Origin: Methanolobus profundi
Lineage (GTDB): Archaea > Halobacteriota > Methanosarcinia > Methanosarcinales > Methanosarcinaceae
Direction of reading: 5' to 3'
NCBI RefSeq assembly: GCF_900114835.1
Contig: NZ_FOUJ01000002.1
Span: 80,374 to 144,373 of the forward strand
Length of the DNA stretch: 64,000 nt
Of the stretch, positions 9,707 through 53,011 are shown in pieces (position 1 is the stretch's first letter; each line of letters starts with the position of its first letter). The notes under the pieces were generated by a model. It did not search any database. It had not been told where the DNA came from and saw only the letters and a list, made by a program, of their open reading frames with translations. Position numbers and translations under genes: made by a program.

Positions 9707-10344
9707 TGTGAAGTAATAATGAGTATTTGATATATAAAGGTTGGAAAGGTAGATTTCTGTGAGAAGCCTGTTAATTTCAACTTTGAACACAGCAATTCTT
9801 ATGAGCATTAAATAATTGCATGATTTCAATAGTTTTCAGGAGGATGGCGAAGGAAAGTGCCGCCTGCGGCGGATGGTAGCACCATTCTTTGTCTGCCACT
9901 GATCCTTACAGATATAATTAGAAACACAAGGCTGCAAGGAACAATAATTTAGATCGATCAGAAGTTATAAATTACTAAAATCATCCCGAAGGGTCCGGCA
10001 AAGCCGGCACATCCCAAAAAGAGGAATAAGATGAAACGTTGCTTCCACTCGTTTTCTGCATACAGATAAATTAAAAAATAGAATTGATCCCATAAGATCG
10101 ATAATCTACAACCACGACAGGCATATACAATCGTATGAGCAATTTCAATGAGAATCCCTACAGAGCCAAAGATGGATCTTGGTTATTTTGAGATAATGAC
10201 CAATCGGGAAGAATATATACATGCAATAGATTATCGCGACAGTGTAGCGACAATTCAAATCATACTTTTGCCCTTACCTACGAAGACTGACCCGCCAACC
10301 TTTACATTTTTATCCCGGTTCTTACATCTAAAGAGGCAGATAGC
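9707..10344. other. Long intergenic region without a credible gene
   Basis: This divergent gap between the HD gene and mtnA holds the first copy of a dispersed element (see 9842-10063) and then about 280 nt of sequence. A 66-codon frame at 10148 overlaps the mtnA start and has no family resemblance or RBS. No tRNA-like fold was recognised. Confidence 0.6.
9842..10063 (+). repeat. Dispersed intergenic element, copy A
   Basis: Three blocks match copy B at 52199-52331 in the same order and orientation. Block 1 (9842-9895) matches 52199-52252 at 41 of 54 ungapped positions. Block 2 (9996-10022) matches 52265-52291 at 25 of 27. Block 3 ends both copies with TCTGCATAC. Copy A has about 88 extra nt between blocks 1 and 2. 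Conserved hairpins are CCG-nCTG-CGG in block 1 and CGGC-nAA-GCCG in block 2. No coding frame is conserved. The strand given is arbitrary. Confidence 0.7.
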
Positions 10345-52142: not shown

Positions 52143-52198
52143 TTAGTGCAATAATGAAAAGCATTTTTCAATAAGCACTGCTTCAGTCATCCTTAGAA

Positions 52199-52331
52199 GT
52201 ATGGTGAAGGAACATACCGTCTGCGGGTGATTGTGGCATTATTCTTTGTTTGATCGAACCGTCACGGCGAAGCCGGCACATTCCAAAAAGATGAAAAAGA
52301 ATCAATTCCCCTCAACTTTTTCTCTGCATAC
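52199..52331 (+). repeat. Dispersed intergenic element, copy B
   Basis: Shorter relative of the element at 9842-10063, with the same block order and orientation; the distance from the end of block 2 to the end of block 3 is 40 nt here and 41 nt in copy A. It lies between two convergent stops (52142 and 52361) and takes up most of that gap. No ORF is conserved between the copies. Confidence 0.7.
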
Positions 52332-52360
52332 CGGCAATGATCCATAATACAAATATCAGG

Positions 52361-53011
52361 TCATCTATAGCTCTTCAAGCCTCTGACATACCCCTTTTCA
52401 TTTATCATTGAGTATTCCTTTGAGATCAGTTTTTTGATCGTTTCGTTTTCTTCAGTGATCGGTTTTCCATTTGTGCCATAATATATCACATAATACTGGC
52501 TTTGATCCTGCATAAATGGCTCAATGATAACTGCAAAATATCCCGATGTTTCATTACTTTCATAGATACTGACATTAAGCTCGGTTGGACCATATATGGT
52601 GTTGTCATTACCTACATCTTTAAGCGTCTCAGTAATGTCTACTGTTCCATCTTGTAGCTTTCCGTGTTCTTCCAGATAATTGTATAACTCCTGCTCACCA
52701 GTTTTCAGATCATCATGATCATCAAAGTAATATACTGTCATCATGGTTCTTCTAGTATAGTTTACTGAACACGAATGTCTGGATATTGAAGGAAAATATG
52801 TTGATTGGTTAAGAACTGCTTTATTTACCAGATCAGGTGGCATGTACCAAGAGAGCATAACTTCTGGAGGAGTTGGGTCACTAGAAGCGTGTCTACAATA
52901 GACTTCAATGTATACATTAATTGTATCTGAGTGTATATATACAACTGTAAGTAAAGATAAAAGTAGTATGCACAGCACAATTATTGTTTTACCTTGTTTT
53001 GTCAATGACAT
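52361..53011 (-). CDS. Exported or membrane-anchored protein, unknown
   Basis: A 216-residue protein with a basic start and a hydrophobic segment at 8-27 ('IIVLCILLLSLLTVVYIHS'), likely an uncleaved anchor. The rest is soluble, with several N-x-S/T sites ('NQSTY', 'NYTRR', 'NVSIY', 'NETSG', 'NETIK') and two Cys. No family is recognised. RBS GAGGA is present. Its leader carries a terminator-like hairpin. The composition is AT-rich compared with the housekeeping genes. Confidence 0.75.
   Translation of the reverse strand: MSLTKQGKTIIVLCILLLSLLTVVYIHSDTINVYIEVYCRHASSDPTPPEVMLSWYMPPDLVNKAVLNQSTYFPSISRHSCSVNYTRRTMMTVYYFDDHDDLKTGEQELYNYLEEHGKLQDGTVDITETLKDVGNDNTIYGPTELNVSIYESNETSGYFAVIIEPFMQDQSQYYVIYYGTNGKPITEENETIKKLISKEYSMINEKGYVRGLKSYR

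Follow-up and report, generated by a model that had tools for sequence, protein, structure and literature searches.

MITEs related to IS5-family insertion sequences (IS) are established in the Methanosarcinales, where ISMac15-, ISMma12-, ISMba19- and ISMbu10-related families have been described (PMC3852290, Table 4). They are gene-less, 140-252 bp long, present in 5-24 copies, and bounded by inverted repeats of 15-17 bp resembling those of an IS5-family element. Archaeal MITEs have also been reviewed (PMC10969869). The family described here, from Methanolobus, shares with the PMC3852290 MITEs the property that only the ends resemble their IS. It is set apart from them by description: it belongs to another genus, is larger (300-415 bp), has target duplications (TSDs) of 8 bp rather than 0 or 3, and contains inverted hairpin modules in two internal layouts. 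Two other kinds of repeat share some of these features. The REPINs and BIMEs of bacteria (PMC3116915 for REPINs) are likewise paired inverted short hairpin modules found between genes in many copies, but the Methanolobus element has IS5-type terminal repeats (TIRs) and TSDs, and a Y1/RAYT transposase is absent from the genome. Terminator-like repeats such as SPRITE (PMC10969869) are also small repeats with GC-rich hairpins and nested elements; the host here is however an archaeon and the likeness is conceptual only. The kind of element is ordinary, a well-supported MITE family of an already well-known kind in which just the slow-changing hairpins are slightly out of the ordinary, and no published description of this particular Methanolobus family was found among the open-licence literature.

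The window, that is the whole 64,000-nucleotide stretch of Methanolobus DNA that was analysed, contains two old copies of this Methanolobus-specific MITE, copy A and copy B. They were compared with a type I profile built from 41 related copies, which includes copy A and excludes copy B. Copy A (9753..10167, + strand; 415 bp) is a complete type I MITE, with a profile match at 9755-10123 and a TIR at either end. The left TIR (9753..9768, +), placed from the profile alignment and the sequence, is a degenerate ATTTCTGTGAGAAGCC that agrees with the family end GGCTCTGTAGAAATCC at 10/16 positions. The right TIR, GAATCCCTACAGAGCC (10152..10167, +; C16:90525-90540 on the reverse strand), agrees at 13/16. 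Flanking these are the two copies of a decayed 8-bp TSD, AAAGGTAG at 9745..9752 and AAAGATGG at 10168..10175, which match at 6/8 positions and were assigned from the sequence and from the TSD statistics of the family. As judged from these letters, the ends of copy A are worn, with a weak left TIR and an imperfect TSD. Inside lie the 5' hairpin block (5B), GGAAAGTGCCGCCTGCGGCGGATGGT at 9852..9877 (+), which is an inverted copy of the 3' module, and the 3' hairpin block (3B) at 9981..10013 (+), with stems CCC-GAA-GGG and CCGGC-AAA-GCCGG. The original prediction had located copy A correctly but had taken in only the middle of the element, which extends from TIR to TIR.

Copy B (52160..52342, +) is a decayed type I copy that matches the profile in two parts, 52160-52252 and 52261-52342, and has no recognisable terminal repeats. 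About 97 internal positions, the CCCGAAGGG stem among them, have been deleted. The indel reported earlier between the copies is genuine, profile positions 135-231 being those missing in copy B. Recounting by eye gave the same block identities as before, 41/54 for block 1 (9842-9895 versus 52199-52252) and 25/27 for the CGGCRAAGCCGGCACATYCCAAAAAGA block. Copy A scores 289.6 bits (E 6e-88, as a member of the profile) and copy B, from outside it, 54.2 and 39.7 bits (E 2e-16 and 5e-12); the likeness of the two is thus far beyond chance. A type I profile search found no third copy in the window, in agreement with the original prediction. Two copies in the window therefore stand, but their apparent rarity does not. 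Against the possibility, raised at the time, that there would be no further copies anywhere, copy A as a query hit a further ~30 loci in the window's own genome of 3.1 Mb.

The family is widespread in the genus. Copy A matches 20 of 27 Methanolobus genomes and a 96-nt 3' segment matches 19 of the 27, whereas the same segment has no match in any of the 85 genomes that represent other Methanosarcinaceae genera. Among named genomes a 24-base exact core occurs in Methanolobus records only (M. vulcani, M. bombayensis and a Methanolobus MAG), and the phage and plasmid collections gave no match to the element. Copy numbers, which come from sequence searches and are lower bounds, vary widely among the Methanolobus species. 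The longest open reading frame per copy has a median of 48-51 aa, and no reading frame is conserved within the element.

Many copies end in GGCTCTGTAGAAATCC...GGATTTCTACAGAGCC, the latter being the reverse complement of the former. The element is about 300-415 bp long, and 304-415 bp in the 35 copies that have both TIRs. In these 35 the 8-bp flanks are identical at 8/8 positions in five copies and at 7/8 in six. The mean flank identity is 5.14/8, as against 2.99 (maximum 3.97) in 20,000 random re-pairings of the flanks, none of which reached the observed value. In one case a type I copy, flanked by the perfect TSD CAACATTG, is nested within a type II copy (L032/L040). The element is thus short, multicopy and without a transposase gene, with TIRs, a TSD of constant 8-bp length and a likely autonomous partner that has the same ends, as a MITE should be. 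We are highly confident that the family is a MITE with an IS5-type partner, a judgement that leaves aside any role of its hairpins.

The partner is a 1001-bp IS of the same genus. First, it has the same 16-bp ends as the MITE, with perfect 8-bp TSDs in six copies. Second, its transposase carries PF01609 and scores 223.1 bits to NF033579 "IS5 family transposase" (cut-off 140). Third, short type I copies have their last ~26 bp in common with the transposase-3' end of the IS (25/26 between MITE L257 and IS L111). Outside these terminal ~16-26 bp the MITE is unlike the IS, and the hairpin blocks are absent from the IS. The IS is a candidate member of the ISH1 group of the IS5 family, whose members have closely related transposases and 8-bp target duplications; the latter length is that of the IS. 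Because the ends and the TSD length are common to both, the 1001-bp element is the likely source of the transposase that moves the MITE. That transposase would have acted on the MITE in trans and placed it mainly in intergenic DNA, and after insertion the copies would have decayed through point mutation and deletion. The transposase gene or pieces of it are present in 23 of the 27 Methanolobus genomes, and its copy number does not track MITE number across species. Only one full-length copy of the IS was found in the window's genome (L087 990-1989; G000:C7:379989-380988), with poorly matching 8-bp flanks (5/8); its transposase reading frame continues past the terminal repeat into flanking DNA. 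A 2-kb pair of TIR-like sites on contig C17, considered as a parent IS, was rejected as a chance pairing; the two large genes between the sites appear from their translations to be phage-related. On a 31-kb contig (L086 387-2507), two adjacent reverse-strand genes appear from their translations to encode phage portal and head proteins.

The MITE occurs in two layouts. Type I consists of the left repeat, a leader of ~60 nt, 5B, ~105 nt, 3B, a tail and the right repeat, and is either ~315-330 or 400-415 bp long. In type II, mostly 304-361 bp, the order is left repeat, 3B, a relic repeat CTTCTGTAGAATTCTC, leader-like DNA, 5B and right repeat. The two consensus sequences agree at 83% over 89 nt around 3B and at 71% over 98 nt around 5B. 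Type II most likely derives from a head-to-tail dimer or circle junction of type I, since its block order is the one such an event would leave. At L018 and L022, whole or partial type I copies lie as tandem pairs a few hundred bases apart, an arrangement that could be a step toward type II.

The two hairpin blocks match each other in inverted orientation (82% over 22 nt). Alignment and inspection by eye define a common module, ACCATCC followed by a hairpin and GGCACGNTCC, to which 3B adds the CCCGAAGGG stem. By this comparison a single GC-rich hairpin module is present twice, as 5B and 3B, in diverged copies of opposite orientation. The core CCGSCGMAGSCGGC occurs exactly 38 times in the genome, as against no occurrence of a reversed control at up to one mismatch, and nearly all modules in the genome fall at loci already found as copies of the element. 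The hairpins are real and change more slowly than the sequence around them. Since the first query had included the hairpins, the 30 copies used to measure constraint were chosen again by the segment between them; in these, identity to the consensus is 0.867 in the hairpin cores and 0.751 in the flanks (Wilcoxon p 1.2e-5, a generous value because the copies are related). Relatedness among the copies, or gene conversion, could lie behind this conservation instead of function. The likeliest single role for the hairpins, though we hold it less probable than not, is to limit the transcription that enters or leaves the element, which would allow copies to be tolerated in the gaps between genes. That the paired inverted hairpins are a selected functional part, for example a two-way transcription stop or a single-stranded DNA or RNA signal, seems to us unlikely. 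If they were, selected hairpins would have been carried into intergenic gaps by an IS5-type MITE and would have survived the rearrangement that swapped the module order. The slow-changing inverted hairpins and swapped layouts offer a small, testable case in which to ask whether an archaeal MITE carries a part that influences transcription around it; should the hairpins have no effect, the family is an ordinary one.

The original prediction had read the two copies as a small dispersed element or a structured RNA family. The first half holds, with TIRs, 8-bp TSDs and a likely IS partner, but the second half is not supported. If the blocks were stems of a non-coding RNA made at each locus, and the copies its genes, the hairpin cores would be expected among the slowest-changing parts, as they are; a single C-G to G-C swap separates 5B from 3B; and the consensus folds slightly better than shuffled sequences (z -1.67 as RNA, -2.22 as DNA). 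Copy A itself however folds no better than its shuffles (z -0.16), and RNAalifold, applied to 79 copies (41 of type I, 38 of type II), gave a weak consensus of about -19 kcal/mol, driven by the hairpins. The stems, proposed earlier for covariation analysis, contain only 4 compensated cells in the 79 copies and their changes mostly break pairs or leave G-U, so covariation provides no evidence that pairing is kept. Rfam gave no match, either at the gathering threshold or at E<=1. The block order is swapped in type II, and the TIRs, TSDs and wide variation in copy number between species point to a mobile element. An RNA gene family is therefore quite improbable. The transcriptome of Methanolobus psychrophilus is described as containing 195 intergenic sRNAs, of which nine are highly conserved and are induced by cold (PMC5378194). 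With the family read as a MITE, a recurring Methanolobus intergenic repeat is explained and tied to a specific transposase, and annotation as RNA genes is unneeded.

By a rough count based on the longest neighboring ORF, 30 copies lie between convergent genes and 7 between divergent genes. On a circular chromosome convergent and divergent gaps are equal in number, so the counts show a bias; selection against insertions into promoters accounts for it with no need for the element to have a function. The same bias would be in keeping with a REPIN- or BIME-like repeat, in which paired inverted REP hairpins are mobilised by a Y1 (RAYT) transposase, and 5B and 3B do form a short hairpin module in inverted copies ~130 nt apart. 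Such mobilisation is nevertheless unlikely because the window's genome has no match to Y1_Tnp (PF01797), which is absent also from the copy-carrying genomes G019, G021, G023 and G026. In addition, the element is bounded by the outer ends and 8-bp duplications of a DDE-type IS, and the modules are almost confined to known loci of the element rather than dispersed on their own. We give this possibility marginally less weight than the RNA genes. Chance resemblance, or remnants of a decayed coding gene, would fit degenerate copies in intergenic gaps but is refuted by the copy number (~30 loci) and the ends, and also has against it the E value of 2e-16 for copy B from outside the profile and the lack of a long reading frame.

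The gaps that hold the two copies of the MITE differ in their genes. Copy B lies between convergent genes, a "methanogenesis marker 16" gene and a reverse-strand ORF of 216 aa (52361-53011, -) that has no Pfam or NCBIfam match. Copy A occupies the gap (9709-10344) that separates mtnA (10345 onward) from a minus-strand gene, with its start near 9709, whose product is an HD-domain protein. In four related species this gap is ~130 bp long and has no element. The same gap holds a reversed type I copy in G019 and a type II copy in G022; these differ from copy A, and the gap has thus been hit independently. The HD-mtnA gap is a repeated insertion target, with differing MITE copies or orientations in three species.
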